This document shows positions 3,785 to 55,642 of a stretch of DNA of 64,000 nt, in pieces; positions within the stretch are counted from its first letter, which is position 1; every line of letters starts with the position of its first letter. The translations under genes were made by a program, and so were the position numbers. The DNA comes from Bombilactobacillus thymidiniphilus (GTDB lineage: Bacteria > Bacillota > Bacilli > Lactobacillales > Lactobacillaceae). The stretch is from the NCBI RefSeq assembly GCF_023380245.1, contig NZ_CP093365.1:806001-870000 (forward strand). Reading direction: 5' to 3'. Below the pieces are notes generated by a model. The model ran no database searches, was not told where the DNA came from, and saw nothing but the letters and a program-made list of their open reading frames with translations.

Positions 3785-3798
3785 AAGGCAGAGCAATA

Positions 3799-6131: not shown

Positions 6132-6152
6132 ATTATTGATAATTGTCTAAAA

Positions 6153-6779: not shown

Positions 6780-7078
6780 ATTGATCCAGAAGGGGCCAAA
6801 CCCAACGGTGTGATCAACGGGGCTAGTTTCAATTACGCTAATGAAAATGATGATATGCACAAACATCTGGATATTAATGTGGTGAAAAATTGGACCCTAA
6901 ATGGAGAACGAATATATCGAATGGATACAAATCTCCAGTTAGAAATGATCAAGTGAAAAATTTGAGCGATCGTAAAAATAGTTACAGTAACAAAGATGGC
7001 AACTATGCAATAAATGGACTATCATCTAAGGACAATACTGAACATCTAGCTAATAAATTTGATCAAATGGTGAAATAA
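6780..7078 (+). pseudogene. Displaced toxin C-terminal fragment (last ~100 codons), frameshifted
   Basis: This DNA encodes the end of a DUF3114-like toxin module, recognisable by INGASFNYA, KHLDINVVK, DPKWRTN, YAINGLSSKDN and FDQMVK. It is more diverged than the other copies (for example EGAKPNG in place of DGINSNG), so it comes from another toxin variant. One base is missing in an A-run near 6885, so the first part and the last part (from 6890) lie in different frames. There is no LXG region and no ribosome binding site. It ends 5 bases before immunity copy C, just as the intact toxin ends at copy A. Confidence 0.8.
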
Positions 7079-7083
7079 GCTGA

Positions 7084-7746: not shown

Positions 7747-7772
7747 CCAAGACGAAATAGCAATCTCATAGT

Positions 7773-8494
7773 CTACCCGGAAACTGTTGGCGCACTTTGA
7801 TAAAAAGTTAGCCCCAAATAATAAATTTTGGGATAGTTTGGCTAAAACCGTCCAAACCGCATTCCCAACGAAAAAAGGACTCAACGATGGTTCCAATTTG
7901 GGACAAAAAATCCATAATTTGCGCTATATCATTTCCGCTCAGCAAGCGCAGTATATCCGCGATAATTACCCGGGAAAAACAGACGCAGAAAAGCTGGCTA
8001 ACTATATGAAAGAATGCGGCAAGGGGTCTTACGAGCTGGAGGGCTCTCGATTGCATCAGAAAATGAATCTGTCTACGGGGGAATATCCCCAAGGCTATGG
8101 CAAAGGTGATTACAAGGTTACACAAAATTTTCATACAGAGTTCCTTTTAAATAGCGAAGGTAAGTTTCAAAATGAAATTGATCCCGATGGCATTAATCTC
8201 AATGGACAAATCAATGGTGCTAGTTTTAATTATGGTAATAAAAAAGTCAACACGCATAAATATTTAGATATTAATGTGGTTCATGATTTGGATCCGCAAT
8301 GGCGACACAATAATTCGAATGGATATAAATCGCCATATTTAGACAGTGATGCACCCAAAGGTTCATCTAAATATCCAGATAGCTATACTAATAGCCATGG
8401 TCACTATGCCATTAATGGAATGTTATCAAAAGATAATGCCACACAACTGGGGCATAAATTTGATCAGATGGTTAAAAAAAGTACTGGACAATAA
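7773..8494 (+). pseudogene. Orphan toxin C-terminal module (displaced copy 2)
   Basis: From about 7773 the sequence is nearly identical to the 3' part of the full toxin gene (from about 4798 to its end). It covers the whole DUF3114-like module, including HNLRYIISAQQAQYIR, FHTEFLL and INGASFNYG, and shows no frameshift. An in-frame TTG at 7787 would allow a 235-residue product, but no ribosome binding site precedes it and the LXG and partner-binding parts are absent. It is most simply a silent cassette. The last third differs from the full toxin (HDLDPQWRHNNSNG), so it is a distinct variant. It stops two bases before immunity copy D. Confidence 0.8.
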
Positions 8495-8496
8495 AA

Positions 8497-9168
8497 ATGA
8501 AAATGCAAAAATTACGTAATTCCATAATAATTATGTTTTTATTAGTACCTATATATTCAGAATTAGCTCTTCCTTCAAATAATAATGTGTGTCAAGCTAG
8601 AACTCATAGTATTAAGCCTAAGCAGACACAGAAAAAGTCTGTGAGTAAAATTAAAATAGGAAAAATTTATTCCGATCCATATGGTTTTTCATGTATCAAA
8701 TTCATAGATAAATGTAATTATGTAGTGTTACTTTTGAATGGCAATCCTGAGAGCTTTTTTCGAGATGGCGAGTCATATCCACTAGAATTTTATATAGGAA
8801 AATATACCCGAAAAGGAAGTAAGTATATCCTTCACAAGGATACTAATCAACATACTAGTATTTACTTTCTGGATATGAAACGCTTTAGAAAAAAACAATA
8901 TTCAGATATCGATGGTCCAGGATCCAATTATACCAATCCTAAAGACAAATCATATAGCATGATTATGTATTTAAAAAATGGTAAATACTATGTAAGAAAT
9001 TACTACGATAGTAAAAGATCCATGGGTTCTTATCAATTGAGACACTATCCCAATCATATTGGTGGTGTTAAAAACAGTACCTTTCCCAATAATGCTCAAG
9101 AATTTTTGAGCAATTTTACGTACATTTCTAGAGACAGAGTACGTGATCTCAGTAGCAAAGGTAAATAA
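8497..9168 (+). CDS. Exported immunity-like protein (copy D)
   Basis: A 223-residue paralogue with a basic N-terminus (KMQKLR), hydrophobic core and a signal peptidase site near NVCQA. The mature part has SKIKIGKIY, a DGESYPLEFYIGKYTRKG segment, IYFLDMKRFRKKQYS, and NSTFPNNAQEFLSNFTY. It is most similar to copy E (the YTxPxDxSxSMIMY stretch is shared). It starts two bases after orphan toxin module 2 and would be the immunity for that variant. The single cysteine before the cleavage site is not in a proper lipobox, so it is predicted to be secreted or surface-associated rather than a lipoprotein. Confidence 0.7.
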   Translation: MKMQKLRNSIIIMFLLVPIYSELALPSNNNVCQARTHSIKPKQTQKKSVSKIKIGKIYSDPYGFSCIKFIDKCNYVVLLLNGNPESFFRDGESYPLEFYIGKYTRKGSKYILHKDTNQHTSIYFLDMKRFRKKQYSDIDGPGSNYTNPKDKSYSMIMYLKNGKYYVRNYYDSKRSMGSYQLRHYPNHIGGVKNSTFPNNAQEFLSNFTYISRDRVRDLSSKGK

Positions 9169-9173
9169 TTTTT

Positions 9174-9812
9174 AAAAACCGCATTTCCAACAAAAAAGGA
9201 CTGGACGACGGTTCCAATTTGGGACAAAAAATCCATAATTTGCGCTATATCATTTCCGCTCAGCAGGCGCAGTATATCCGCGATAATTACCCGGGAAAAA
9301 CAGACGCAGAAAAGCTAGCTAACTATATGAAAGAATGTGGCAAGGGGTCTTATGAGCTAGAAGGCTCCCGATTGCATCAGAAACAGAAAAAAGGAAAACA
9401 TAATGAACTAATTTACCCTGAAGGCTATGGCAAAGGTGACTATAAGGTTACACAAAATTTCCATACAGAGTTTCTTTTAAATAGTGAAGGCAAATTCCAG
9501 AATGAAATTGATCCCGATGGCATTAATTCTAACGAGCAAATCAATGGCGCTAGTTTTAATTACGGTAATAAAAAAGTCAACACGCATAAATATTTAGATA
9601 TTAATGTGGTAAAGAGATTAGATCCGCAATGGCGTCATGATAAATCTAGTGGATATAAATCGCCACTTTTGGAGGAAGAAGCTAAAAAGCTTGGTAAATT
9701 AAATGATAGCTATACTAATTCTCATGGTCGTTATGCCATTAATGGTATGTCGTCTAAAGACAATGCGACACAACTTGGACATGAATTTGATCAGATGGTT
9801 AAGGGACAATAA
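9174..9812 (+). pseudogene. Orphan toxin C-terminal module (displaced copy 3), frameshifted near its start
   Basis: The sequence matches the full toxin from about codon 360 to the end. Relative to the other copies, one base is missing in the A-run at about 9192-9197, so the first few codons are out of frame with the rest. From a TTG at 9219 a 197-residue frame is open, but without a ribosome binding site. A local variant replaces the MNRSTGEYPQ region by an insert with QKKGKHNELIYPE, and LLEEEAKKLGK differs near the end, marking a third specificity variant. The 3' end (AAGGGACAATAA) provides the ribosome binding site for immunity copy E. Confidence 0.8.
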
Positions 9813-9814
9813 AA

Positions 9815-10480
9815 ATGAAAAAATTACGTAATTTGATGGTGATCGTGTTTTTATTGATTCCTACCTTTATAGAAACAATAATTATTCCAAATAATAATGT
9901 AGTTCAAGCTAAAGTCAGGAAGCATAAAAGCAAGACGCGTAAAGCTAAACCAGTCAAAAAAATTGAAATTGGTCAAGTTTATTTAGATGTTTATAGTTCC
10001 TCTTGTATCAAGCTTTTAGATCAAGACAACTATGCATTACTAGACTTCAATGATCGACCCAAGCCTTACTTTGATGACGGTGAATTATACATGTTGGAAT
10101 TTAATATGGGTAAATATACCAAAAAGGGTGATCAGTATATATTCCATATGGAAACTAATCAATTTACCAGAATTTCATTCATGGATATGAAACGTTGGAA
10201 AGCAAAGCAATATTCCTATAGTGATGGTCCTGCTGCAGATTATACAAGTCCCAATGACACTTCTCACAGTATGATTATGTATCCTAAAAAGGGGCGGTAT
10301 TATGTAAAAAGTTACTTTAAGGGTAAACGTTATATGGGAACTGATAAATTAGAATATTATTCTAATAGTATTAAAGGTGTCAAACATAGCACCTTTCCCA
10401 ACAATGCCCAAGAATTTTTACAGCAATTCACGTATATTTCTGAAAAAGAAGTGAATAAGTTATATTTAAAAGGTAAATAG
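9815..10480 (+). CDS. Exported immunity-like protein (copy E)
   Basis: A 221-residue family member with the signal peptide pattern of copy A (LIPTFIETIIIPNNNVVQA). The mature domain carries KKIEIGQVYLDV, DDGELYMLEFNMGKYTKKG, RISFMDMKRW and STFPNNAQEFLQQFTY. It starts two bases after toxin fragment 3 with AAGGGACAATAAAA as its ribosome binding site and spacer. It is the last intact immunity gene of the array and is followed by a 60-base toxin scar and a truncated immunity gene. The biochemical role is unknown. Immunity is inferred from alternation with toxin modules. Confidence 0.7.
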   Translation: MKKLRNLMVIVFLLIPTFIETIIIPNNNVVQAKVRKHKSKTRKAKPVKKIEIGQVYLDVYSSSCIKLLDQDNYALLDFNDRPKPYFDDGELYMLEFNMGKYTKKGDQYIFHMETNQFTRISFMDMKRWKAKQYSYSDGPAADYTSPNDTSHSMIMYPKKGRYYVKSYFKGKRYMGTDKLEYYSNSIKGVKHSTFPNNAQEFLQQFTYISEKEVNKLYLKGK

Positions 10481-42146: not shown

Positions 42147-43601
42147 ATGAAAATTAAAGTTGAAGAACTGACGGCGATTCGAGAGCACTTAGCTGGGCAA
42201 ATTCAAACAATTAATGAAGATTTGCAAGATGTCAGTGCCAAAATGGTTGCTGTTCCGCAAACTGAGGACTTTAAAGGTACCGCACAGAAAAATATTTTAA
42301 GTTATACCCAGCGAGTGCATCAAAAGGAAACTACTACAATTACGACAGACTTGAATGATTTGTTGCAAGAGTATAATCGCTTGCTAGAGCAGTTTGCGCA
42401 AGGTGTGGATAATAGTCCTACTGCGGTGATCAATACGGATTATTTGCATGACATACAACAGCAATTTCATCAAGCCATGCAACAATTGAATGTTGAGCGC
42501 CAGCAAATGAATCGCGCGATTTCCATGGCTGCCGATGAAGGTGCGAATGTCAGTCCCTTGGATTCTGGTATGGATCGCGCTATTCAAGAAAGTATTCAAT
42601 TTATTAGCCGATTAGTTAATGCTATGGAGCAATTTAATGGCACTGCTGTGTCGAGTAAGGTAGCAGATATTGAACACAGCGCTATTAAAGTGCAATCGGT
42701 GGTTAATAATTTGGATGGCTTTCACGCTAATGGGAAGTCACGTTTTGCTAAATTGCATAGTGTGAAAGATTTTAGTAAGAAAATTCAGACGAAAAAGAAG
42801 CATAAAAGTTCCTCTAAACAAAGTCATTGGTTAGCTTCGCTACTGGGAATTAATATGATTGGGTTCGGCAAAAGCAAAAGTCATAAAAAAGGGTTTATTA
42901 GCGGTAGCTTTGCTGGCGGGGGTATCCATGGAACTTCTAAATTTTCTTTAGATAAATTTGAAAAGTTACTAAACTTTTACTCTTTCTCTAGTTTTTTTAG
43001 TAATCCCATCCTTGGTGTATTATTGACAGAATTCACAGGAACATTACAAAAAAAGTTACATCTCCAGAAATCTGGTAAATTAAAATTAGATTTTGAATCA
43101 GGTGATGGAATCTTTAAAAAGGGTAAAAAAGGGAAATTTTCGGGTTTACTAGCATCTGTGGATACTCATGTGCTTTCAGCAAGTATAGGTGGCGAAAGTA
43201 AAGACCGCTTGGTTTCAGCAGATAGTAATTTGAATGGAGATATTGGTAGTTTTAAGGCTAGATTGGATAATTATAAATCAGGCAACACTTCTAAACACGG
43301 ATTTACATTATCTGCTGATGGTCTTGATGGATCATTTAGAGGTGGCGTAAACATTAATGATGGTAAAAAAGGACAAGTTGGTGGGATTCATTTATCTGGT
43401 TCTGCTGGAGTAAGTGCAGGAGCCACAGCTGAATGGACACATCAACATTTAGGAGATACTAAAGTACCTACTCTCTTTAATCATTTGCAGATAAATGAAT
43501 CTTTCAATGCTGAAACAATAGAATTAGGCGGGAAATTGGGTTTGGGAGCAATATCTGATATTACTTTTCCAGTGGCTATTCCACATTTTAGTTGGAAATA
43601 A
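42147..43601 (+). CDS. LXG-family type VII secreted toxin (locus 2)
   Basis: A 484-residue protein. Residues 1 to about 215 form an LXG-type helical domain (begins KIKVEELTAIREHLAGQIQ). A basic linker (KKHKSSSKQ) follows. The C-terminal domain has one hydrophobic stretch (FYSFSSFFSNPILGVLL near residue 280) and then a glycine/serine-rich region of about 170 residues with repeated beta-like GSFKARLDNY, GFTLSADG, GSFRGGVN, GGIHLSGSAGVSAGATAEW elements. No known toxin family is recognised. The membrane nature of the downstream candidate immunity proteins suggests a membrane target. GGGGG ribosome binding site. Confidence 0.8.
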   Translation: MKIKVEELTAIREHLAGQIQTINEDLQDVSAKMVAVPQTEDFKGTAQKNILSYTQRVHQKETTTITTDLNDLLQEYNRLLEQFAQGVDNSPTAVINTDYLHDIQQQFHQAMQQLNVERQQMNRAISMAADEGANVSPLDSGMDRAIQESIQFISRLVNAMEQFNGTAVSSKVADIEHSAIKVQSVVNNLDGFHANGKSRFAKLHSVKDFSKKIQTKKKHKSSSKQSHWLASLLGINMIGFGKSKSHKKGFISGSFAGGGIHGTSKFSLDKFEKLLNFYSFSSFFSNPILGVLLTEFTGTLQKKLHLQKSGKLKLDFESGDGIFKKGKKGKFSGLLASVDTHVLSASIGGESKDRLVSADSNLNGDIGSFKARLDNYKSGNTSKHGFTLSADGLDGSFRGGVNINDGKKGQVGGIHLSGSAGVSAGATAEWTHQHLGDTKVPTLFNHLQINESFNAETIELGGKLGLGAISDITFPVAIPHFSWK

Positions 43602-43631
43602 AAATTATTTGATTAAGTAATATTGAAAGGG

Positions 43632-43819
43632 TTATTGATATTTCGTTAATTCATTATTTTAAGTGCATATAATATATATCATTGATTTTGAGCACAGCTT
43701 TAACTATTTTTGTTGTTCTGTATCAATTTAAATTTAGCTCTTTTACTTTTGGTGCTACTATTAGTGTTTCTGCAGTTATTTTTATCCTATTATACTTATG
43801 TATCCACTGGATAAATTAA
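43632..43819 (+). pseudogene. Decayed copy of the locus 2 membrane immunity protein family
   Basis: The start (GATATTTCGTTAATTCATTATTTT) is nearly the same as that of the intact gene at 44829. The reading frame gives ISLIHYFKCI, then an in-frame TAA, then YISLILSTALTIF and further hydrophobic residues to a stop near 43819. Only about 60 codons remain, so it is a truncated, interrupted paralogue of the following genes. It lies directly after the LXG toxin, where the original cognate immunity gene would be expected. Confidence 0.65.
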
Positions 43820-43835
43820 TGTGGGGGATAAACAA

Positions 43836-44312
43836 TTGCTTGATTTTTGGTCACACAAATACTATTTGTCTTTATTTATATACGCAGTTATTTTTATTTT
43901 TTTGTTTCTATATCAGATACTAGCAGGCTTTCCCAATGATGGTTCGCCATTTATTATGTTTACAGCTTTACTTGCTACAATAATTAGTTGCCTTTATAAA
44001 TTTTCTTATTATATGTCTTCTATTCAATTTGATTTATATCATGATAAAGATTATAAAAATGTGAAACCAACTGCATTTACGGATCTGAGTAGAAATTGGA
44101 ATTTATTAATTGGCAAATTTTCCACAATATTTATGTGGATATCAATGATTATATTTTTGGCTGTGTTCCACGTAATGTTATTAATTTGGGCTTTTTGGCT
44201 CAATTGGCGATACACTCCTTGGCTATTTTTATATTTTGGTGGATTGTTTTTCTTGATTAATAGTTTGTACGGTTCTGCTAGAGCTTGCATTACAGCTTAT
44301 AAACATAAGTAA
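43836..44312 (+). CDS. Small four-helix membrane protein, candidate immunity (copy 1)
   Basis: About 158 residues with four predicted membrane segments. It shares with its three neighbours an N-terminal F-x-x-K-Y-Y-L-S-L motif and a C-terminal LYGSARACITAYK. No known family is recognised. TTG at 43836 is chosen because the GGGGGAT before it is well spaced and the start aligns with its paralogues; the GTG at 43821 overlaps that site. Located after an LXG toxin in a tandem array, it is a likely membrane immunity protein. Confidence 0.7.
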   Translation: MLDFWSHKYYLSLFIYAVIFIFLFLYQILAGFPNDGSPFIMFTALLATIISCLYKFSYYMSSIQFDLYHDKDYKNVKPTAFTDLSRNWNLLIGKFSTIFMWISMIIFLAVFHVMLLIWAFWLNWRYTPWLFLYFGGLFFLINSLYGSARACITAYKHK

Positions 44313-44326
44313 TAAGGAGATTTTTA

Positions 44327-44824
44327 TTGAAAATAATCCATTTTTTTACTAAAAAGTACTATTTATCATTAATCTTATTTATTTTATTTTCCATTATCAT
44401 GACTATGTATCAATTTTACTTTAGCTCGCACGCTGTAGATATAGAGTCGGATATTTTTGTTGGGATTGTGGGTCCAGGAATGTTTTTTTCTATTTTATTT
44501 GTGCTTACAAAGAATTATACATCCATTCACTTTGATATAGCTAATTCGCCACAGTATAAGTATATGAAGCATACCCCTCAGCTTGAATTTAAGAGACAAC
44601 TTTTTTTGACAGTTCTTCCTTGGTTTTTGATCTTAATGTGGATAGCTTTTATTTTATTTAACGTGATTGATTACTTTAGGGGGATGGTGTTTATTAAGGG
44701 TTTGGGACTCATGTATATCCCATATTTTTGTCTTTTAATTGTTGACTTGTTGTTTTTATTTTTGAGTCTTTATGGCGCTGCCACAGCTGGTTGGCGAGCT
44801 TATAAAGCGCCGATAACACATTAG
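44327..44824 (+). CDS. Small four-helix membrane protein, candidate immunity (copy 2)
   Basis: A 165-residue paralogue: IHFFTKKYYLSLILF at the N-terminus, four hydrophobic segments, and LYGAATAGWRAYKAP at the end. TTG start with AAGGAG seven to eight bases upstream. It follows copy 1 by 14 bases and copy 3 begins five bases after it, consistent with one transcript. The middle of the protein is poorly conserved between copies, while the two ends are conserved. That pattern is expected if the variable middle determines which toxin is neutralised. Confidence 0.7.
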   Translation: MKIIHFFTKKYYLSLILFILFSIIMTMYQFYFSSHAVDIESDIFVGIVGPGMFFSILFVLTKNYTSIHFDIANSPQYKYMKHTPQLEFKRQLFLTVLPWFLILMWIAFILFNVIDYFRGMVFIKGLGLMYIPYFCLLIVDLLFLFLSLYGAATAGWRAYKAPITH

Positions 44825-44828
44825 TGAG

Positions 44829-45377
44829 GTGATTGATATTTCGTTAATCCGTTATTTTACGCGCAGATATAGTTTATCGCTATTTATCTTTTTGCTTATA
44901 AAGTTGCTTGAAAGCATTGTAATGCTAATATTGCTACCTCAAAAAGATTTGGCAATTTCCATGGGCATGGCTACAACATTGTCTGCTTTATTTACATTTG
45001 CATTCTGCAATTTATCTGTGCATTTAACTTCTAATAAGTTGAATAGTCATTTTGAATCTCAGCATCCTTTACCAAGATTTTATGTCAATCAGAGTAAATA
45101 TTATAAACATGCTTTGAAGAGCTGGGAAGGGTATCGCTTGGCGGGCTTAATATTATTTTGGGGCTTGATTGCCGTAGGAAGCTGTTTTCAACCGGTGGCT
45201 AGTTTAATAAGTGGTGTTATTGGAATTTTTCGTAGTGGTAATAATATGATTTTATTTTTGACAAATGTATTGTTCTTGATGATTAGTTTCATAATATATA
45301 GCTTTTTAATAATGGGTCTTTATGGTTCTGCTAAAGCTAGTTGGCTAGCTTATAAGGCACCGATGAAAAGGAGTTGA
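44829..45377 (+). CDS. Small four-helix membrane protein, candidate immunity (copy 3)
   Basis: A 182-residue paralogue with ISLIRYFTRRYSLSLFIF at the start and LYGSAKASWLAYKAP at the end, and four or five hydrophobic segments. The start is uncertain: GTG 44829 lies inside the only G-rich sequence (GAGGTG), whereas the conserved part begins at an ATT codon (44838). The decayed copy at 43632 has the same 5' sequence, so this gene and the remnant are the closest pair. Confidence 0.68.
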   Translation: MIDISLIRYFTRRYSLSLFIFLLIKLLESIVMLILLPQKDLAISMGMATTLSALFTFAFCNLSVHLTSNKLNSHFESQHPLPRFYVNQSKYYKHALKSWEGYRLAGLILFWGLIAVGSCFQPVASLISGVIGIFRSGNNMILFLTNVLFLMISFIIYSFLIMGLYGSAKASWLAYKAPMKRS

Positions 45378-45386
45378 CATAATTTA

Positions 45387-45878
45387 TTGAAATTTTTTAC
45401 TAAAAGATATTATTTAATGGCTTTTTTAGCCGCTCTAGTAGGTTTAGCAATCAATTTTTGTCAGTATAAATTGGGGTGTCAGGGGATTATCTATTGGTCA
45501 CCGTTTGTTTGGCTTTTCATGGTTATTTTTTACAAAGTAGGTATTTGGTTAGCTGCCACTAAATTGAATGGAAAATATATCTCACGGGCTGCACAAAGTG
45601 ATGTTTCGCTGTTGACTTATTGTGCGCGGATGCCTTTACACCAAACTCTAGCAATTACTGTTTGGGTAGATGTGATTTGGCCGATAGTTTTCTTTAGTTC
45701 TTTCATCCTATTATATGGTCGATTACAAGGTTCAACTTTTTGGATAATTATGTATTATTTTTTCGTATTTTTATATGAATTATTGACAATTATTAGTTAT
45801 GTAGTGGCGGGGCAAGCTTGTATTGCTGCTTACCGTCCGTCAAAATTTGATAAATATTGGGAGGATCAGCATGAATAA
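45387..45878 (+). CDS. Small four-helix membrane protein, candidate immunity (copy 4)
   Basis: A 163-residue and the most diverged member. KFFTKRYYLMAFLAAL at the start is conserved, but the end reads GQACIAAYRPSKFDKY instead of the LYG-type motif. TTG start; AAGGAG is 13 bases upstream, longer than usual. Its last eight bases overlap the ATG of the DUF4176 gene, tying the array to the DUF4176 pair. Function is inferred from context only. Confidence 0.66.
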   Translation: MKFFTKRYYLMAFLAALVGLAINFCQYKLGCQGIIYWSPFVWLFMVIFYKVGIWLAATKLNGKYISRAAQSDVSLLTYCARMPLHQTLAITVWVDVIWPIVFFSSFILLYGRLQGSTFWIIMYYFFVFLYELLTIISYVVAGQACIAAYRPSKFDKYWEDQHE

Positions 45879-46167
45879 TTTGCCAGTGGGGAGTGTCGTC
45901 ACATTGGGCAACGCTAAGGATTTGTTGATGGTGGTGTCGCGTTTACCGATTACGACTAAAGATGATGAGGAAGTTTATTTCGATTATGCGGGTGTACCCT
46001 TGCCGATGGGGGTTATTTCAGATGAAGTGTTGTTTTTCAACGATGCTGACATTAACCACGTGCTCAGCTTAGGCTATGTTAATGAGGCTACACTGTCTTT
46101 TCAAGAAAGCGTCGCTGCTTGGAAAAAAGCAGGCACGGTGCAACAAGGAACGGCGTATATTAAATAG
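45871..46167 (+). CDS. DUF4176 family protein, T7SS-associated (copy 1)
   Basis: A 98-residue soluble protein with the DUF4176 pattern: LPVGSVVTLGNAKDLLMVVSR, then VYFDYAGVPLPMGV and LFFNDADINHVLSLGYV. DUF4176 genes are frequent in LXG/type VII loci of Firmicutes; their role is not established. The ATG at 45871 follows GGGAGG and overlaps the end of the preceding gene. The apparent longer frame from 45823 runs inside that gene and is rejected. Confidence 0.85.
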   Translation: MNNLPVGSVVTLGNAKDLLMVVSRLPITTKDDEEVYFDYAGVPLPMGVISDEVLFFNDADINHVLSLGYVNEATLSFQESVAAWKKAGTVQQGTAYIK

Positions 46168-46183
46168 GAAGGAAAAATAAAAA

Positions 46184-46501
46184 ATGCAAGATAAAATTTT
46201 ACCAATCGGTTCGGTAGTAAGTTTACAGGATGGCGACGGTACGCCGTTAGTGATTGTCAGTCGTGCGGCATTATATAAAAAACCTGGCGATAGTGAAATT
46301 AGTGGTTACTTTGATTATTGTGCGGTAGTGCATCCGCAAGGATTGCAAGATCCTAATGATATGCTGTTTTTCAACCATGAAAACATTGATGAAGTCTATA
46401 CATTAGGCTATCGCGATAATGAAGAGTTAGCTTTTGAAGATAATTATGCTGAGCTGGTGGAATCTTCAGGTTATCCAAAATTGTCAGTGGATAATGATTA
46501 A
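46184..46501 (+). CDS. DUF4176 family protein, T7SS-associated (copy 2)
   Basis: A 105-residue paralogue: LPIGSVVSLQDGDGTPLVIVSR, GYFDYCAVVHPQGL, LFFNHENIDEVYTLGYR. It is 16 bases after copy 1, with AGGAAGG upstream. Two adjacent but clearly diverged copies suggest different partners. It closes LXG locus 2 and is followed by a strong terminator. Confidence 0.85.
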   Translation: MQDKILPIGSVVSLQDGDGTPLVIVSRAALYKKPGDSEISGYFDYCAVVHPQGLQDPNDMLFFNHENIDEVYTLGYRDNEELAFEDNYAELVESSGYPKLSVDND

Positions 46502-48463: not shown

Positions 48464-48493
48464 TTGACTTTAATTGTGCGGTAATCTTATGTT
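48464..48493 (+). promoter_or_regulatory. Promoter of LXG locus 3
   Basis: TTGACT (48464-48469) and TATGTT (48488-48493) with an 18-base spacer, just after the fba terminator and about 40 bases before the first partner gene. Confidence 0.5.
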
Positions 48494-48534
48494 AACATTA
48501 AAAGGTATTTTTAAATTAAATGGGGGTTAATTTA

Positions 48535-48789
48535 ATGAGCGGATCAATTGCATCTAATCAAGCGACGGCGGGAGCAGCAGTTACTAAGTTATCAGGAGTA
48601 AGTGTGGTCAATGAAGGTAAAATTGACGTGCCTACAAGTACTATCGAAAGTATAGTTGATGGAACGCAAGTTAATAACGAAATGATATCAACTTTAAGCG
48701 ATTTGGTGGAATATGTACAAATACAAGGCAACAAATTTCCACAAATTGATAAGCTGTTAGCCGAAGTTGATAATAGTATTAAATTTTAA
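48535..48789 (+). CDS. Type VII LXG-associated small helical protein (Lap1 / SACOL2603-like, locus 3)
   Basis: An 84-residue protein beginning SGSIASNQATAGAAVTKL, with the Ser/Ala/Asn-rich first helix and the late F-x-x-I-D turn (KFPQIDKLL) seen in the TIGR04197/DUF3130-type partners. It is the first gene of the locus. The ATG at 48535 is used because GGGGG is nine bases upstream; the ATG at 48520 precedes that site. It lacks membrane segments and a signal peptide. It corresponds in position to the 3213 protein of locus 1. Confidence 0.75.
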   Translation: MSGSIASNQATAGAAVTKLSGVSVVNEGKIDVPTSTIESIVDGTQVNNEMISTLSDLVEYVQIQGNKFPQIDKLLAEVDNSIKF

Positions 48790-48804
48790 CTGGGGGAAAT
48801 AAAA

Positions 48805-49140
48805 ATGTCTGATAGCGAGCAAGATGAACAGCGCCAAGAATATAATCGTTTGATTATGAATAATGAAGAGCGAACTGATGATTTAAAGCTTGAGCAGAAT
48901 AAAGTAGAAACGGCTTTAGATGAAGTACAACAATACTTACATCATGATTTTCAACAGTTGAATCAGTCGGATCTACATCTAAATGTTGATGAACAACGTG
49001 AAAATGATCAGTTGCAGTTAAAGTTTCAGCATTATTTTCATGATTTCCATGAACAAGTTAGTCATGATAGTCATACCCAGTTACGTAATCTGGATGATGA
49101 ACGAGAAGAACTTTATCAAAAGCGAGGACATTTATCATGA
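48805..49140 (+). CDS. Type VII LXG-associated coiled-coil protein (Lap2 / DUF3958-like, locus 3)
   Basis: A 111-residue acidic, Gln/Glu/Asp/His-rich coiled coil (EERTDDLKLEQNKVETALDE). It is second in the partner-partner-toxin order. GGGGGAA precedes its ATG, and its TGA overlaps the toxin ATG (ATGA). It matches the 3461 protein of locus 1 in size and role but is more acidic. Family name inferred from gene order and composition. Confidence 0.72.
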   Translation: MSDSEQDEQRQEYNRLIMNNEERTDDLKLEQNKVETALDEVQQYLHHDFQQLNQSDLHLNVDEQRENDQLQLKFQHYFHDFHEQVSHDSHTQLRNLDDEREELYQKRGHLS

Positions 49141-50411
49141 GTTTGATTTATTACAGTTCTGAATCAGCTAAATTAATCAAAAGTTTAAAAAGTAATTTAC
49201 AAGCATCAAAAAAGACAGTTGCAAGCGTCAAAGATGGTATTCGCAATATCATTGCGGCCGTTGATGGTAAAAAATTATCGGGAAAGTCTTATACGGCAGC
49301 TAAAAATGTTTTTGGCGATTTAATTTTGCCAACTATGGCACAAGTAACTAATGGTTTTGATGATATTCAAACAGAATTGAAAAAATATGAAAGTGCCAAT
49401 AAAGAAATTGAAAATGAAGGGGACTTGAATGAAGATAAACTACTGCGGCAGATTAATTTAAAGAAAAATATGCGTTCTTCGCTTGAGGATGCTGCTAATC
49501 TGCTCAAAAAAGCTCAAAATAAATTAGATACTTCCGGTATTCAAAAAACAATGGGGAATATGATGCAGGATCTAACTAATGATATCCATAAGTTGGAGAA
49601 GAAATTAGATAAATTACGGACATTTTCCTCTACGACCAAGGGACTGTTTAGTGATAGTTTGCATAATTTAGACCAAGCCGTTAAAAAGTTGGCTGCCTTG
49701 AAAAAAACAGTTATTTCGAGTGATGGTCATTATGAAGATAATAAATCTCTGGGAAAATTGTTTAGTGATGATGAGATAAAAGAGATTAATAGTGAATTTT
49801 TAGATCATGGTTCTGAAGCTTTAGAAAAATTGTCTGAATTTAGTAAAAAGAAAAATATTGGACTAGCATTAGGCGCCAGACTCCAGCCACGTAAAAATGG
49901 ATCATTTGTGAAGAGTAAAAGTAAGGCTAGGAATAAAGCAATTAGTTTTTCTAAATCTTCTATAAGAAAATATAATAACCCTATAAGCATTGCATCTAAC
50001 ATAGGAAGTAATTTTTTTGGTGTATTGGGTAAAATATTGGATTTTATGGATATGGCTGATGATTTCAATAAATTCAATAATAGGCATCATAATGTTGGGC
50101 GAGGAATGGTTTATGCTGCTGGATCCAAATTGCATGGTGATAAGGGATTGGCAGACGGTGCTTTTGAAGCATCTGGAACTACTCCTGGTAGTGCTAATTT
50201 TTCTCAAAGTGCTCATAATTCGTCTGGACTATTTGATAATATGATAAATAAGTCTAACGATTCCACTGCATGGTATCAAAGTCGATATGGTAAGGATAAA
50301 GCTATTACGGACCATATAAATCATTTAGGGGATGCTATAGATATGTTATATACAAATCCGTATAATCCTGGTGATACTTTTATTCAAAAGCCGATTCACT
50401 ATGATAAGTAA
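49137..50411 (+). CDS. LXG-family type VII secreted toxin (locus 3)
   Basis: A 424-residue protein. An LXG domain of about 210 residues begins SLIYYSSESAKLIKSLKSNLQ (aligning with the start of the locus 1 toxin). A basic linker (RKNGSFVKSKSKARNKA) and a C-terminal domain of about 150 residues follow, containing SIASNIGSNFFGVLGKILDFMDMADDF (split) and a Gly/Ala-rich AAGSKLHGDKGLADGAF segment. No catalytic motif is recognised. It is followed by a DUF4176 gene and seven DUF443-like membrane proteins. DUF443 proteins give immunity to the membrane-damaging TspA toxin of Staphylococcus aureus, so membrane damage is a reasonable but unproven guess. Confidence 0.8.
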   Translation: MSLIYYSSESAKLIKSLKSNLQASKKTVASVKDGIRNIIAAVDGKKLSGKSYTAAKNVFGDLILPTMAQVTNGFDDIQTELKKYESANKEIENEGDLNEDKLLRQINLKKNMRSSLEDAANLLKKAQNKLDTSGIQKTMGNMMQDLTNDIHKLEKKLDKLRTFSSTTKGLFSDSLHNLDQAVKKLAALKKTVISSDGHYEDNKSLGKLFSDDEIKEINSEFLDHGSEALEKLSEFSKKKNIGLALGARLQPRKNGSFVKSKSKARNKAISFSKSSIRKYNNPISIASNIGSNFFGVLGKILDFMDMADDFNKFNNRHHNVGRGMVYAAGSKLHGDKGLADGAFEASGTTPGSANFSQSAHNSSGLFDNMINKSNDSTAWYQSRYGKDKAITDHINHLGDAIDMLYTNPYNPGDTFIQKPIHYDK

Positions 50412-50453
50412 CTTGGATGTCAAAAATAATGTGATGATGAGGAGTTTAAAAAT

Positions 50454-50765
50454 ATGTTACCAATTGGTAGTGTTGTAACTTTAGTAAATGGTTCACAAAA
50501 ATTGATGATTTTAAATATTGGACAAATTATTAAGCAGAATGAAAAAGATGTATATTTTGATTATAGTGCTGCACCATATCCAGTGGGCTTAGATACTCAA
50601 GAGCAGGTTTATTATTTCAATCGTGACAATGTTTCAGAAGTTGTTTTTCAGGGATTTCAAGATGAAGATGGTAAGCACTTTGGTGATCTTTATGAGCAAT
50701 GGATTGAAGAAACAAAAGACGAGATTCAACGCGGTAAAGTCAAGAATGACACCGACATTTTTTAA
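50454..50765 (+). CDS. DUF4176 family protein, T7SS-associated (copy 3)
   Basis: A 103-residue paralogue of the two locus 2 proteins: LPIGSVVTLVNGSQKLMILN, VYFDYSAAPYPVGL and YYFNRDNVSEVVFQGFQ. It lies between the locus 3 toxin and the first DUF443-like gene. GAGGAG precedes the ATG. The repeated association with LXG toxins in this window supports a function in toxin handling or immunity rather than chance. Confidence 0.85.
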   Translation: MLPIGSVVTLVNGSQKLMILNIGQIIKQNEKDVYFDYSAAPYPVGLDTQEQVYYFNRDNVSEVVFQGFQDEDGKHFGDLYEQWIEETKDEIQRGKVKNDTDIF

Positions 50766-50777
50766 AGGAGTTGGAGT

Positions 50778-51455
50778 ATGCCAGAAACTGCTCATCGGAT
50801 TAAGCTAGTTGGTCGAATCAACATGCAATATTATTTAATCAAGTACTGTGATCGGCATTATTTATTGGATTATAGTGATCCCAGCAAAATTAGTAATTAT
50901 GGTCCGTTATGCTTATTAAGTGGTGATCGAGAATTAACCATTTATGATGTTGAGGAAGAAAGAGAACAATATTTACAAAATCTGACGTTTAATTATTTTA
51001 GTCACAGATTTTCCATTTTTTGTTTGTTTTTATTTTTAGTAGTTTTAATTAACTTAGGTTCAAAAATTAACAGTAATTTGACCGACTTTTGGTATATATA
51101 TGAGCTGGCTATGCCCATTGTGATTTTCACAAGTTTTATTTTATTGACGATGGTAGTTTTCAAAATTGCCGCTCATAAGCCGATCGATGTTTCATCTTAT
51201 GATTCAGTAACGTTGGAATTAATTGATTTAGAAGATGAACTTTTTTCACCGACTTTCAAGAGGATATTTTTAATTGCCAGTAGCTGTTTTTTGTTGTGGA
51301 TGAGTTTATGGGTTGGGATTAGCTCATTGAATTTTGCTTTATCAATCATTTTTGGGCTGTTGTATCCTTGCTTTATTGTTTTTTATCGTTTTATCGTCTG
51401 TGGATTTAGTTTACCTGATAATAATAGCTACAAAAAACTTTATAAAATTAAATAA
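50778..51455 (+). CDS. DUF443-like membrane immunity protein, type A (copy 1 of 7)
   Basis: A 225-residue protein. A soluble N-terminal part of about 80 residues carries GRINMQYYLIKYCDRHYLLDYSDP and YDVEEE (split), a pattern like the Y-x-I-I-K-Y...YLMID start of DUF443. Four to five membrane segments follow, with a cytoplasmic loop (DVSSYDSVTLELIDLED) between pairs, and FYRFIVCGFSLPD ends it. AAGGAG before the ATG. It starts a tandem array of seven related genes behind an LXG toxin. Arrays of DUF443 immunity genes are known in S. aureus type VII loci. Confidence 0.72.
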   Translation: MPETAHRIKLVGRINMQYYLIKYCDRHYLLDYSDPSKISNYGPLCLLSGDRELTIYDVEEEREQYLQNLTFNYFSHRFSIFCLFLFLVVLINLGSKINSNLTDFWYIYELAMPIVIFTSFILLTMVVFKIAAHKPIDVSSYDSVTLELIDLEDELFSPTFKRIFLIASSCFLLWMSLWVGISSLNFALSIIFGLLYPCFIVFYRFIVCGFSLPDNNSYKKLYKIK

Positions 51456-51477
51456 AAAAAGTATATAGGAGTTATTT

Positions 51478-52137
51478 ATGTCAGAAACTGATTACAGGAT
51501 TCATATAGTGGGGCGCGTTAATCTGCAATATTATTTAGTTAAGTATTGCAATCGGCATTATTTGTTGGATTATGGCGATCCGCGTCAGTTTGCCAATTAT
51601 GGCCCGTTATTTTTCTTTAATAGTAATGAGCAGTTTACGGTTTATGATGTGGAGGCTGATAAAGAACAATTTCTGCGTCGAGCTAAACACAAGTATTTTA
51701 ATTTTAAACAAGCGATTATCAGTTTATTGTTATTTTTGATATCTTTACTTGTCTTGTTTCCCCTTCTTTATAATGATAATGCTTTGAAATGGTATATGTA
51801 TATTTTTGTTATACCATCTGTAACTATAGGAAGTGTTATCTTATTAATTGCCATGCTCTTGAAAAGAACCAATAAGCAGTTAATGGATATGCCACGTTAT
51901 CCATCCATGCAATTAGAATTAGTAAGTTTCAAAAAAACGTCTATTCTTAAAAAAGTTTCTGTAGTCTACGGAAATTATTTCTTGTTGTGGTTAAGCTTAA
52001 ATATTTATATTTATTCTTGTAGTAATGTTTTACTAATCATTTTTGGCTTTTTGTATCCGTATTTTATAATTTTCAATCGTTTCATTGTGTGCAGTTTAGA
52101 TAGAGTGGGTGGCAAAAAGAGTTATCAAATAAAGTGA
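51478..52137 (+). CDS. DUF443-like membrane immunity protein, type B (copy 2 of 7)
   Basis: A 219-residue paralogue of a second subtype. The N-terminal GRVNLQYYLVKYCNRHYLLDY is shared with type A, but the following FFFNSNEQFTVYDVEADKEQFLRRAKHKYFNF and the ending NRFIVCSLDRVGGKKSYQIK (both longer motifs given in part) mark type B. Four to five membrane segments. AGGAG precedes the ATG. Its N-terminal YCNRHY is closer to type A than the other B copies are, which suggests exchange between subtypes. Confidence 0.72.
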   Translation: MSETDYRIHIVGRVNLQYYLVKYCNRHYLLDYGDPRQFANYGPLFFFNSNEQFTVYDVEADKEQFLRRAKHKYFNFKQAIISLLLFLISLLVLFPLLYNDNALKWYMYIFVIPSVTIGSVILLIAMLLKRTNKQLMDMPRYPSMQLELVSFKKTSILKKVSVVYGNYFLLWLSLNIYIYSCSNVLLIIFGFLYPYFIIFNRFIVCSLDRVGGKKSYQIK

Positions 52138-52151
52138 AGAGGAGAGATTAG

Positions 52152-52832
52152 TTGTCCAAAGTAGGCCATAAAATTCAGGTTATTGGACGGATCAACATGC
52201 AATATTATCTAATTAAATATTGTGATCGGCATTATTTATTGGATTATAGTGATCCCAGCAAAATTAGTAATTATGGTCCATTATGCTTATTAAGTGGTGA
52301 TCGGGAGTTAACCATTTATGATGTTGAGGAAGAAAAAGAACGATATTTACAAAATCTGACGTTTAACTATTTTAGTCACAGATTTTCCATTTTTTGTTTG
52401 TTTTTATTTTTAGTAGTTTTATTTGCACTGGGTTCCAAAATTAATGGCAGTAATTTGACCGACTTTTGGTATATATATGAGCTGGCTATGCCCATTGTGG
52501 TTTTCGCAAGTTTTATTTTAGTGACGGTGGTTGTTTTCAAAATTTCTTCCCATAAGACGATCGATGTTTCATCTTATGGTTCAGTGACGCTAGAATTAAT
52601 TGATTTAGAAGATGAGCTTTTTTCACCGACTTTCAAGAGGATATTTTTAATTGCCAGTAGTTATTTTTCACTATGGTTTAGCTTGGGAGTTGCTTTTTAT
52701 ACAGCCAGTGTGGGTTTATCAATCATTTTTGGCTTTTTATATCCTTTTTTTATTATTTTTTATCGTTTTATTGTCTGTGGACTTAGCTTGCCTGATAAAG
52801 ACAGTTACAGGAGAGTCTATAAGATTAAGTAG
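52152..52832 (+). CDS. DUF443-like membrane immunity protein, type A (copy 3 of 7)
   Basis: A 226-residue type A protein nearly identical to copy 1 through residue 85 (ISNYGPLCLLSGDRELTIYD is shared) and differing mainly in the last third (SYFSLWFSLGVAFYTASVG). TTG start with AGGAGA seven bases upstream. It is the first gene of a unit that is repeated immediately downstream: the distance from this start to the next type A start is 1385 bases, the same as between type B copies 4 and 6. Confidence 0.72.
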   Translation: MSKVGHKIQVIGRINMQYYLIKYCDRHYLLDYSDPSKISNYGPLCLLSGDRELTIYDVEEEKERYLQNLTFNYFSHRFSIFCLFLFLVVLFALGSKINGSNLTDFWYIYELAMPIVVFASFILVTVVVFKISSHKTIDVSSYGSVTLELIDLEDELFSPTFKRIFLIASSYFSLWFSLGVAFYTASVGLSIIFGFLYPFFIIFYRFIVCGLSLPDKDSYRRVYKIK

Positions 52833-52863
52833 TTTCAAAATTAATAATATTTAGGAGTTATTT

Positions 52864-53556
52864 ATGTCAGAAAATGATCACAGGATTCATATAGTGGGGC
52901 GCGTTAATATGCAATATTATTTGATCAGATATTACGAACACTATTATTTATTAGATTATAGTGATCCACTGCAGATAGAAAATTATGGTCCTTTATTTTT
53001 CTTTAATAGTAATAAGCAGTTTACGGTTTATGATGTGGAGGGTGATAAAGAACAATTTCTGCGACGGGCTAAACACAGGTATTTGAATTTTAAACAAGCA
53101 ATTATTGGTTGGATATTATTTTTATGTGCTTTGGTTATTTTATGTCCTATCATGGATTATGATAATTTGTCAAATCTTGACTGGTATTTACACACTTTTG
53201 TTCGACCATTATTTATTTTGGTTATCTTTATCTTATTAATTGCGCTGAACTTAAAAATAAATATTAAGCATCCCATAGATGTCTCGTCTTATAGGAAATC
53301 CACTTTGGAATTGATGGATGTGAAAGAATCGTCCATTTGGAAAAAAGTATCCATAATTGTTGGCAATTACTTTTTACTGTGGCTCAGTTTAAATATTGGT
53401 ATGTACACAGCAAGTGTAGTTTTACTGATCATTTTAGGCTTTTTATATCCGTACTTTGTAATTTTCAACCGTTTTATTGTGTGCAGTTTGGATAGAGTGG
53501 GTGACAAAAAGAGTTATCAAATAAAGGAGAGATTGGGTGTCCAAAGAAGGCCATAA
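52864..53556 (+). CDS. DUF443-like membrane immunity protein, type B (copy 4 of 7), with extended C-terminus
   Basis: A 230-residue type B protein. The N-terminal part has YYEHYYLLDYSDPLQIENYG, identical to copy 6. After the usual ending SYQIK the stop codon present in copies 2 and 6 is missing, and translation continues for 11 residues (ERLGVQRRP) into the start of the next gene, overlapping it by 20 bases. The extension is best explained by a small deletion at a duplication junction. AGGAG before the ATG. Confidence 0.72.
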   Translation: MSENDHRIHIVGRVNMQYYLIRYYEHYYLLDYSDPLQIENYGPLFFFNSNKQFTVYDVEGDKEQFLRRAKHRYLNFKQAIIGWILFLCALVILCPIMDYDNLSNLDWYLHTFVRPLFILVIFILLIALNLKINIKHPIDVSSYRKSTLELMDVKESSIWKKVSIIVGNYFLLWLSLNIGMYTASVVLLIILGFLYPYFVIFNRFIVCSLDRVGDKKSYQIKERLGVQRRP

Positions 53557-54217
53557 AATCAAGGTTATTGGTCGAGTTAATCTGCAATATTATTTAATTA
53601 AATATTGTGATCGGCATTATTTATTAGATTATAGTAATCCCAGAAAAATTAGTAATTATGGTCCATTATGCTTATTAAGTGGTGATCGAGAATTAACCAT
53701 TTATGATGTTGAGGAAGAAAAAGAACAATATTTACAAAATCTGACGTTTAATTATTTTAGTCACAGATTTTCCATTTTTTGTTTGTTTTTATTTTTGTTG
53801 GCTTTAATCTGTTTGCTACCGCATTTATATAATGATCATTTAAATTATTTTTGGTATATATATGATTATGTGGTACCATTTGCGTTTTTAGCTGTTTTTA
53901 TCGTAGTGACTACTATCACACTTCAAATAGCTTCAAAAAAGCAAGTTGATGTTTCAGATTATCAAGAGATAACTTTGGAATTAGTTGAATCCGATGAAGG
54001 GGTATTGTCACCTATATTTAAGCGAATATGTTTAATTGTAGGTAGTTACTTTTTATTTTGGTTAAGTTCCGACATTGGAGCATATGCGTCAAGCATTGTT
54101 TTATCAATCATTTTTGGCTTTTTATATCCTTTTTTTATTATTTTTTATCGTTTTATTGTCTGTGGATTTAGCTTGCCTGATAAAGACAGTTACAGGAGAG
54201 TCTATAAGATTAAGTAG
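53537..54217 (+). CDS. DUF443-like membrane immunity protein, type A (copy 5 of 7)
   Basis: A 226-residue type A protein. Its first about 90 codons and its last about 40 codons are almost the same DNA as copy 3, while the middle (LLALICLLPHLYNDHLNYFW, VDVSDYQEITLELVE) is different. GTG start with AGGAGA upstream, inside the end of copy 4. The mosaic pattern, conserved ends and a distinct core, points to recombination that swaps the membrane/loop core. Confidence 0.72.
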   Translation: MSKEGHKIKVIGRVNLQYYLIKYCDRHYLLDYSNPRKISNYGPLCLLSGDRELTIYDVEEEKEQYLQNLTFNYFSHRFSIFCLFLFLLALICLLPHLYNDHLNYFWYIYDYVVPFAFLAVFIVVTTITLQIASKKQVDVSDYQEITLELVESDEGVLSPIFKRICLIVGSYFLFWLSSDIGAYASSIVLSIIFGFLYPFFIIFYRFIVCGFSLPDKDSYRRVYKIK

Positions 54218-54248
54218 TTTCAAAATTAATAATATTTAGGAGTTATTT

Positions 54249-54908
54249 ATGTCAGAAACTGATCACAGGATTCATATAGTGGGGCGTGTTAATCTGCAAT
54301 ATTATTTGATCAGATATTACGAACACTATTATTTATTAGATTATAGTGATCCACTGCAGATAGAAAATTATGGTCCTTTATTTTCTTTGGGAATCAATAA
54401 ACAATTCAATATTTACGATATTAACGCTGATAAAGAACAATTTTTGCGCCGGGCTAAACACAAGTATTTGAATTTTAAACAAGCGATTATTGGTTGGATA
54501 ATATTTTTGCTTTCTTTTATAGTCTTAACTCTATTATTGTATAATAACGACTCTTCGTATTTGTATTCACTATTTTTCTTGTTACCCATTGCGCTTATAG
54601 TCTTATTAATTTTATCTATTATGTTACTTTTGAAAAGAAATAGTAAAGAAAAAATAGATGTTTCGCTGTATCAGTCAATGACATTAGAATTGATTGACAA
54701 AAAAGAATTATCTATATTCAAAAAAGTGTCTGTGGTTTCTGGATTTTGTTTTTTGCTCTGGCTCAGTTTAGATATTGGTTTCAATTCAGCCAATATTTTT
54801 TTACTGATCATTTTCGGTTTCTTATATCCTTGTTTTGTAGTTCTCAACCGTTTTATTGTGTGCAGTTTAGATAGAGTTGGTGGCAAAAAGAGTTATCAAA
54901 TAAAGTGA
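54249..54908 (+). CDS. DUF443-like membrane immunity protein, type B (copy 6 of 7)
   Basis: A 219-residue type B protein. The region before it and its first 40 codons are the same as at copy 4. It then diverges (FSLGINKQFNIYDINAD) and rejoins the type B pattern (KEQFLRRAKHKYLNFKQAII) before a unique core, and ends NRFIVCSLDRVGGKKSYQIK with the normal stop. Same four- to five-helix plan. AGGAG before the ATG. Confidence 0.72.
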   Translation: MSETDHRIHIVGRVNLQYYLIRYYEHYYLLDYSDPLQIENYGPLFSLGINKQFNIYDINADKEQFLRRAKHKYLNFKQAIIGWIIFLLSFIVLTLLLYNNDSSYLYSLFFLLPIALIVLLILSIMLLLKRNSKEKIDVSLYQSMTLELIDKKELSIFKKVSVVSGFCFLLWLSLDIGFNSANIFLLIIFGFLYPCFVVLNRFIVCSLDRVGGKKSYQIK

Positions 54909-54922
54909 AAAAGAGGGATTAG

Positions 54923-55609
54923 GTGTCAAAAGAAGAGCACATCATTCATGTTATTGGCCGAGTTAATCTGCAATATTATTTGGTTCAGTATTGTGAGCAT
55001 TATTATTTGGTGGATTACAGTAGTCCAAAGCGCGTTAGTAATTATGGACCGTTTGCATTGATCAATCGCGACCGGGAATTATTCATGTATAATGTGGACG
55101 ATGATCAAGAATTGTTTTTAAAAAAAGCTAAACCGCTTTACTTGAAGCGACCAATAGGAAATATGCTTTTTATTTTATTGTCATTATCATGTTTTATATT
55201 TGCAAGGATCCTGGCTGGATATCACGGAGTTTATGATCATCACGTAATTCATCCTACAATGTTTTTGATGGTATTTTTATGTGGCTTGATCATAATTATG
55301 CTTGCTTTTGGAATATATGATTTGTTAAAAATTGATGTTTCAAAATATCCCAAATATGTTTTAGAATTGACAGATACGACTAGTGTATGCACGACGGTTC
55401 GGCAGGAAGCTGAAATTTTAATCGCGCATTTTCTGTTCATGAAAGGTTTAGCCATAGGTAGGTTTTCTAACAACATAGAGCTGACGATTATTTACGGACT
55501 AGTGTATACGTATTTTATTATTTTTAGTCGATTCATAATATTTAAAATTAGCGACCATCATCGTACTAGAGGTACTAATTTGTATAAACTATTATCAATA
55601 GAAGAATAA
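54923..55609 (+). CDS. DUF443-like membrane immunity protein, diverged type (copy 7 of 7)
   Basis: A 228-residue and the most diverged member. The entry motif IIHVIGRVNLQYYLVQYCEH and YYLVDYSSPKRVSNYGPF are retained, but the membrane region and the ending (SRFIIFKISDHHRTRG) differ from types A and B. GTG start with AAAGAGGG upstream. It closes the array and is followed by a terminator. It may be the oldest copy or come from another locus. Confidence 0.7.
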   Translation: MSKEEHIIHVIGRVNLQYYLVQYCEHYYLVDYSSPKRVSNYGPFALINRDRELFMYNVDDDQELFLKKAKPLYLKRPIGNMLFILLSLSCFIFARILAGYHGVYDHHVIHPTMFLMVFLCGLIIIMLAFGIYDLLKIDVSKYPKYVLELTDTTSVCTTVRQEAEILIAHFLFMKGLAIGRFSNNIELTIIYGLVYTYFIIFSRFIIFKISDHHRTRGTNLYKLLSIEE

Positions 55610-55642
55610 AAGTATTGTGACCAGTTCACGATACTTTTTTTA
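55609..55642. terminator. Bidirectional intrinsic terminator
   Basis: AAAAGTATTGTGA-CCAG-TTCACGATACTTTTTTT between LXG locus 3 and the convergent MFS gene. Confidence 0.85.

Follow-up and report, generated by a model that had tools for sequence, protein, structure and literature searches.

The window analysed here, a stretch of 64,000 nucleotides from Bombilactobacillus thymidiniphilus (NZ_CP093365.1, positions 806,001 to 870,000), contains an array of seven co-directional open reading frames (ORFs) at 50778-55609, which encode tandem paralogous membrane proteins termed DUF443-like in the following (Table 1). The copies belong to two types, A and B, plus one divergent copy, C, and are arranged in the order A-B-A-B-A-B-C, as already described in a first-pass annotation made from the DNA letters. 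The motifs named there for the two types are also borne out by the alignment: all three A proteins carry ISNYGPLCLLSGDRELTIYD and FYRFIVCG, and all three B proteins carry KEQFLRRAKH and NRFIVCSLDRVG. Protein identity is 63-81% among the A copies, 63-67% among the B copies and 39-46% between A and B, while C shares 31-36% with any other copy. B2 lacks the stop position of B1 and B3 and is nine codons longer, overlapping A3 by 20 nt; this read-through tail was removed for several alignments and for the hot-spot scan described below.

Table 1. Features of the DUF443-like array and of the gene run to which it belongs (positions refer to the window)
Feature	Position	Strand	Basis and remarks
A1, type A DUF443-like membrane protein	50778-51455	+	ORF list, alignment
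B1, type B DUF443-like membrane protein	51478-52137	+	ORF list, alignment
A2, type A	52152-52832	+	ORF list, alignment; 81% identity to A1
B2, type B	52864-53556	+	PF04276 E 3.1e-4, 21.0 bits, under cut-off 26.2
A3, type A	53537-54217	+	PF04276 E 0.017, 15.3 bits; TIGR01218 E 0.054
B3, type B	54249-54908	+	PF04276 E 5.1e-5, 23.6 bits (cut-off 26.2); TIGR01218 E 5.8e-7, 29.5 bits (cut-off 35)
C, divergent copy, probable fourth A slot	54923-55609	+	Position, block tree; PF04276 E 0.34, 11.1 bits
Homology block, A1 5' part, common to A2/A3	50847-51047	+	Shares exact repeats with A2 (59 and 54 nt) and with A3 (55 and 75 nt)
Homology block, A2 3' end, spacer and B2 5' part	52715-52999	+	Copied at 54100-54384 (A3 3' end, spacer, B3 5' part); exact repeats of 67, 91 and 90 nt, offset 1385
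Promoter-like site TTGACT-18-TATGTT, 5' of the gene run	48464-48493	+	Match to the consensus only; 38 sites of this kind in the region, 39.6 expected
LapT1-like small protein, 89 amino acids (aa)	48520-48789	+	FxxxD motif at residue 73; position; by-eye likeness to L040:11715-11966 and L041:11773-12024
Lap2-like small protein, 111 aa	48805-49140	+	Position only; no significant Pfam/NCBIfam match
LXG-domain putative T7SSb toxin, 424 aa	49137-50411	+	PF04740 27.8 bits, cut-off 26.5
DUF4176 (Ltc-type LXG chaperone)	50454-50765	+	PF13780 E 1.7e-24; chaperone role as described in PMC13355648 and PMC11322744
Terminator-like stem, 13 pairs and T run	55608-55638	+	Directly after C, where the gene run ends; 4 sites of this kind in the region, 2.9 expected

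The alternation of the two types matches what would result from duplicating a unit of about 1.38 kb that consists of one A and one B gene. In blastn, the array aligns with itself at an offset of 1374 bases (50799-53739 with 52173-55125), and this single match of 2966 columns with 78% identity and a reported E value of 0.0 excludes a chance resemblance. The direct repeats in the array have spacings that alternate between 700-712 and 673-674 bases, and the junction of A2 and B2, including the spacer, recurs as that of A3 and B3. The order alone is weak evidence, because 2 of the 20 possible arrangements of three A and three B copies alternate when either start is counted; it is the two-gene period of the self-alignment together with the repeated A-B junction that makes the alternation compelling. 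Thus, the alternation is explained by duplication of the A-B unit, as seen in one self-alignment at offset 1374.

There is modest evidence that C is, by position, a fourth A copy. The same self-alignment continues into the start of C (to 55125), and the spacer between B3 and C comprises 14 nt, like that between B1 and A2, with 11 of the 14 positions being the same; the A-B spacers have 22-31 nt. Over its first 60 nt, C has an identity of 82% with A3, of 72-77% with A2 and with the B copies, and of 62% with A1; in a block tree, its first 20 codons cluster with those of A2 and A3 with a support of 87. The extent of the self-alignment, the B3-C spacer and the 5' likeness to A2 and A3 therefore suggest placing C in the fourth A slot; its core and tail resemble neither type. 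The alternative that C, judged by its position, represents a third class of its own was set aside, since the copy stands in a slot that fits a fourth A. An exact repeat of 31 nt was dropped as an argument on C, as it lies in the 3' end of B1 and B3 and ends one base beyond the stop codon.

Within a type, the 5' and 3' parts that define it are alike at silent sites as well, apart from local exceptions, and the core between them is saturated in five of the six within-type pairs; such a pattern would be expected from in-phase recombination or gene conversion. In bins of 60 nt, DNA identity within a type is mostly 86-100% over the first ~80 and the last ~30 codons; exceptions occur in A1 (67-68% in its first 20 codons and 67% in its last bin), in A2/A3 (82% in the first 20 codons), in B1 (65% in codons 20-40) and in B3 (63-67% in codons 40-60). 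Over codons 80-200, identity is 44-77% in all within-type pairs except A1/A2. Silent-site divergence (pS) in the core is 0.62-0.72 in the five saturated pairs and 0.58-0.71 in seven A-B pairs; within types, it is 0.22-0.50 in the N block and 0.00-0.27 in the C block, except for 0.61-0.62 in the C block of pairs that include A1. Recombination was assessed by this synonymous-site contrast between flanks and core and by block trees. Codon shuffles support the contrast in five of the six within-type pairs (p ≤ 0.001) and in none of the seven A-B pairs that were covered out of nine (p ≥ 0.56). Purifying selection on the protein alone cannot explain a contrast at silent sites, whereas recombination or conversion among the A copies and among the B copies can. 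At the protein level, residues 43-77 are 87% identical within types and 32% between them, the tail 90% and 50%, and the middle loop of the core 49% and 43%. Tandem immunity arrays of the EsaG/TipC type are marked by at least two conserved nucleotide blocks around a variable core, and the same arrangement is found here, with A1 lacking the 3' block. The copies look maintained, because the core dN (nonsynonymous divergence) of 0.38 is well below the dS (synonymous divergence) of 1.3-1.9 in A1/A3 and A2/A3.

Within the core, the helix pairs TM1-TM2 and TM3-TM4 (TM, transmembrane) emerge as candidate specificity regions. A hot-spot scan with a 30-residue window was run on 12 chosen pairs of copies, some of which share genes, and its p values are uncorrected; Q2, a frameshifted copy from another locus of the same genome, was left out. 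The peak of change lies in TM3-TM4 or its approach in A1/A2 (p 0.007), S3/S4 (p 0.003), S1/S3 (p 0.044), V1/V2 (p 0.015) and R1/R2 (p 0.0002), the latter being a pair from a genome of another genus (G131). It lies in TM1-loop-TM2 in A2/A3 (p 0.0004), B1/B2 (p 0.0046) and B2/B3 (p 0.0002). In the G131 pair, a 100-base stretch of 58-62% identity stands between immediate flanks of 96-100%, with an upstream 50-base window at 80%, a pattern that looks like swapped segments.

Hydropathy predicts four membrane helices in five of the seven copies and three in B1 and C; for seven DUF443 proteins of other genomes, it predicts three to six. Two low-confidence AlphaFold2 models show N-terminal beta strands and four long helices, and a VIA-align comparison of the first model gave no Z above 4.2 and is uninformative on the fold. 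In A1, A2, A3, B2 and B3, the outer loops, of which two are predicted, contain 0-1 lysine or arginine residues, and the tail is positively charged, a pattern that would place the N and C termini on the inside. Together, these predictions suggest a topology of two helix pairs with short outer loops. For TsaI, five transmembrane helices with the N terminus out and the C terminus in have been predicted (PMC7456083).

Profile comparisons support the assignment of the array proteins as distant, TsaI-like relatives of DUF443. The search with PF04276, which the first-pass annotation had proposed as a check, returns four of the seven copies at E ≤ 1 (B2, A3, B3 and C), two of them at E ≤ 0.001, and all of them below 26.2 bits; TIGR01218 is the NCBIfam model "tandem five-TM protein". 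By hhalign, the array profile matches a profile of 12 proteins from places above the PF04276 cut-off with 94.7% probability (E 6e-8) over 181 columns, i.e., along most of the protein, and the bridge via the G131 pair has a probability of 97.2% (E 4.3e-11). In one of the alignments, the A1 product was used without its first 14 residues and Q2 and Q3 were left out. Gene context agrees with the assignment, as DUF443-like genes lie downstream of an LXG gene, often in tandem, in the window and at other loci. The earlier DUF443/TsaI interpretation therefore holds as distant homology with a conserved gene context, but not as membership by a curated cut-off, and sub-threshold scores combined with profile-profile homology are the reason for the name DUF443-like.

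In a family-wide search, in which up to seven first-look candidates were scored per genome, the array profile matched 3 of 397 genomes, including the present one, and in a smaller sample only this genome out of 60. PF04276 matched 5 of 60 and 28 of 398 genomes (again including this one), with 4 and 19 of them above the cut-off. Profile scans of genome contigs and viral contigs, and a tblastn search of plasmids with the A3 product, revealed no relative. An alternating DUF443 array is not reported in any of the titles and abstract beginnings listed for the literature on DUF443, TsaI, LXG, DUF4176 and T7SS (type VII secretion system) immunity.

The array forms the distal part of a tight gene run at 48520-55609, in which Lap1-like, Lap2-like, LXG, DUF4176 and array genes are separated by gaps of -20 to 42 bases. 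The Lap assignment of the two small upstream genes is based on position and homologues: the LapT1-like homologue at L041 scores 27.2 bits with TIGR04197 (cut-off 26), that at L040 scores 16.6 bits, which is under the cut-off, and the window copy has no TIGR04197 match. The LXG protein has the features of a T7SSb (type VIIb secretion system) toxin, namely an LXG domain above the cut-off, Lap-like genes upstream and an EssC encoded elsewhere in the genome (482149-485952, 1525 bits). It is 43% identical over residues 1-339 to its paralogue at the Q locus of the same genome and 36% identical over residues 1-402 to the G131 protein.

The C-terminal part of this LXG protein deviates from its relatives. 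In a comparison of 11 LXG proteins, based on hydropathy only, it lacks the hydrophobic glycine-rich C-terminal segment of TspA/EsxX-type toxins; its top 19-residue window has a hydropathy of 1.19 at residue 283, and none of its three top windows lies beyond residue 300. Eight other LXG proteins linked to DUF443 or DUF443-like genes reach 1.46-2.35 beyond residue 330, and the two remaining ones have values of 1.42 (G388, residue 333) and 1.23 (42147-43601 of the window, residue 460). A membrane segment hidden in another reading frame was rejected, because tblastn of three related proteins against 49137-50470 gave one main-frame match each, with all others at E 0.52-7.5. The protein may represent a variant that acts in a different way or no longer inserts into membranes.

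The order of LXG gene, DUF443 or DUF443-like gene(s) and DUF4176 gene recurs at other loci (L040, L043, L046, L047, L051, L052 and L053); four of these, L043, L046, L047 and L053, have just one DUF443 gene with the toxin. At the G131 locus (L041), one DUF443-like copy lies beside the LXG gene and a second one 3.5 kb further on, followed by DUF4176. Here, a block that comprises a DUF443-like gene and several genes for proteins of 205 and 129 aa occurs twice (L041:3116-10037), which provides a further case of multi-gene block duplication; over 1.9 kb, the block copies are mostly 92-100% identical, interrupted by differing stretches of ~50, 100 and 300 bases. The B. thymidiniphilus genome itself has two more DUF443-like loci, P (L039, with the two genes P1 and P2) and Q (L040). 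The Q locus consists of Lap-like genes, an LXG gene, Q1, Q2, Q3 and a DUF4176 gene; Q2 (L040:8524-9284) is frameshifted and split into two frames. All three Q copies have one 5' type over codons 1-40, judged by eye for Q2. A PF04740 search of the own genome found no LXG gene near P1/P2 (503-520 kb). Over codons 20-40, P1 is 92-95% identical in DNA to Q1 and Q3, with ~80 kb between the loci, which suggests exchange between them.

Two further regions of the window encode LXG or LXG-like proteins. At 42147-46501, downstream of a second LXG gene (PF04740 41.8 bits), there are four tandem genes for small membrane proteins of 163-182 aa, none of which has a Pfam match above the cut-off, and two DUF4176 genes (E 5.4e-20 and 6.3e-23). 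At 3781-10480, an LXG-like protein (PF04740 18.8 bits, below the cut-off) with a C-terminal DUF3114 (E 1.4e-60) is followed by five proteins of 206-223 aa, paralogous by eye, which lie among LXG C-terminal fragments (7787-8494 and 9219-9812); this looks like a series of orphan toxin/immunity cassettes.

In S. aureus, TsaI protects against the membrane-depolarising toxin TspA (PMC7456083), and by analogy with this neutralisation the seven genes probably constitute a distant DUF443/TsaI-like repertoire of membrane immunity proteins within an LXG toxin module, which has grown by A-B duplication and whose proteins act alone. Each protein would comprise four membrane helices and a cytosolic N-terminal beta domain. 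The conserved ends would provide a scaffold shared by all copies, whereas TM1-TM2 and TM3-TM4, as the variable helix pairs, would set which toxin is recognised while it inserts from outside. The array would protect mainly against pore-forming LXG toxins of relatives; given the hydrophobic segment missing from the adjoining LXG protein, the array may serve mainly against toxins of others. The alternation would be a by-product of array growth, and it could be kept because A copies recombine with A and B copies with B.

Several observations weigh against this interpretation. None of the seven copies reaches a curated Pfam or NCBIfam cut-off (the best is B3), A1, A2 and B1 have no PF04276 match at E ≤ 1, and the structure models, with the seven window proteins as input, are poor (pLDDT, predicted local distance difference test, 56.9 and 45.9). 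The adjoining LXG protein is without the C-terminal segment expected of a TspA-like toxin, and P1 and P2 (L039:6977-8470) differ in their 5' type, being 63% identical over codons 20-60. The flank/core contrast is missing in A1/A2 (p 0.80) and in the three of six C pairs covered (p 0.14-0.46), the 3' end of A1 shows core-like silent-site divergence (pS 0.61-0.62), and a circular-shift control is weaker than the codon shuffles, with ranks of 2/218 to 18/218 (1-8%) for the five pairs. The core also retains type signal, with 52% identity within and 30% between types in TM1-TM2, and 65% and 50% in TM3-TM4. Finally, the peak of change lies elsewhere, at residues 130-167, in T1/T2 (p 0.0008) and U1/U2 (p 0.0016), and it is not significant in S1/S2 (p 0.75) and Q1/Q3 (p 0.057).

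The first-pass annotation had suggested from the alternation that A and B may work as a pair, so that each A-B pair would assemble into a membrane-bound heteromer that gives immunity to one toxin variant. Strict alternation, tight packing and the B2/A3 overlap fit obligate partners, as does the location of the type-defining residues in the N domain and the C tail, which are predicted to be cytosolic and could form a shared interface. Locus P pairs two 5' types, and there is a precedent in ExiC and ExiD, two polytopic proteins that are both described as needed against extracellular EsxX (PMC12744356). The step from alternation to pairing is nevertheless not supported, because block duplication explains the order, the sister array Q has one 5' type and other toxin loci have a lone DUF443 gene. 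Moreover, the core of A1/A2 is 80% identical and that of B1/B2 51%, which indicates that the would-be pairs did not diverge together (three pairs, without statistics). No B follows C, and a single TsaI is described for TspA (PMC12744356). Obligate pairing is therefore unlikely. An extension of this idea, in which DUF443-type immunity is split into co-inherited A and B halves that form heteromers via conserved cytosolic ends and carry interchangeable membrane cores, is improbable; if true, combinations of A and B cores would recognise more toxin variants than there are genes.

It is also doubtful that A and B represent two specialised lineages that act independently on two toxin classes, with selection for both maintaining the alternation. 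The strong difference between the types at residues 43-77 and in the tail, and the fact that they stay distinct side by side, would be expected in this case, but the middle loop of the core is almost without type signal and in-phase homology alone can hold the types apart. Very improbable is a role of the array proteins as membrane partners for LXG export or anchoring rather than in immunity. They belong to the same gene run as the Lap-like and DUF4176 genes and the LXG protein has no pore-like segment; however, the known export partners are Lap and Ltc proteins and a DUF443 protein is described as neutralising TspA. Copy number and localised diversification fit immunity better, and P1/P2 have no LXG gene nearby.

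The closest known system is TspA/TsaI of S. aureus, in which an LXG protein is likewise followed by tandem, non-identical polytopic membrane paralogues (PMC7456083, PMC9484751, PMC11322744). Two Lap proteins and one DUF4176 protein are reported to support the secretion of TspA (PMC11322744), DUF4176 proteins now being named Ltc chaperones (PMC13355648), and both systems share these helpers as well as a conserved 5' block. In B. thymidiniphilus, the helpers lie in the same gene run, whereas they are described at another locus in S. aureus; in strain SID53, tspA2-tsaI2 is inserted between the Lap2 and DUF4176 genes (PMC11322744). Further differences are the alternation between two types, a second conserved block at the 3' end, which includes the spacer for A2 and A3, scores below the cut-offs of curated hidden Markov models, and an LXG protein without a hydrophobic C-terminal segment. 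While the array has a clear recombination-like signature, tsaI is reported to have one conserved block and little evidence of recombination (PMC9484751). In this respect, the array resembles the tandem immunity arrays of EsaG and TipC, in which conserved blocks flank variable parts and are read as paralogue recombination (PMC9484751); those proteins belong to other families, and A/B alternation is not mentioned by that study, whose main text does not contain the word stem "alternat". ExiC and ExiD also represent two kinds of polytopic membrane protein, encoded in immunity islands as well as at a locus for an LXG toxin, but they are DUF5079 and DUF5080 proteins with six predicted helices each (PMC12744356), whereas A and B are paralogues that share 39-46% identity and have about four.

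The array illustrates that a regular alternation of paralogues need not imply functional pairing. The useful new part is the recombination-like pattern together with the candidate specificity regions. The growth and change of tsaI arrays were left open for S. aureus in the study cited above (PMC9484751). In this array, and in the G131 pair from another genus, silent sites or DNA-level comparisons reveal conserved ends and swapped or fast-changing membrane segments. With TM3-TM4 and TM1-TM2 as candidates, the toxin-recognising part of a TsaI-like protein would become testable with a few chimeras.

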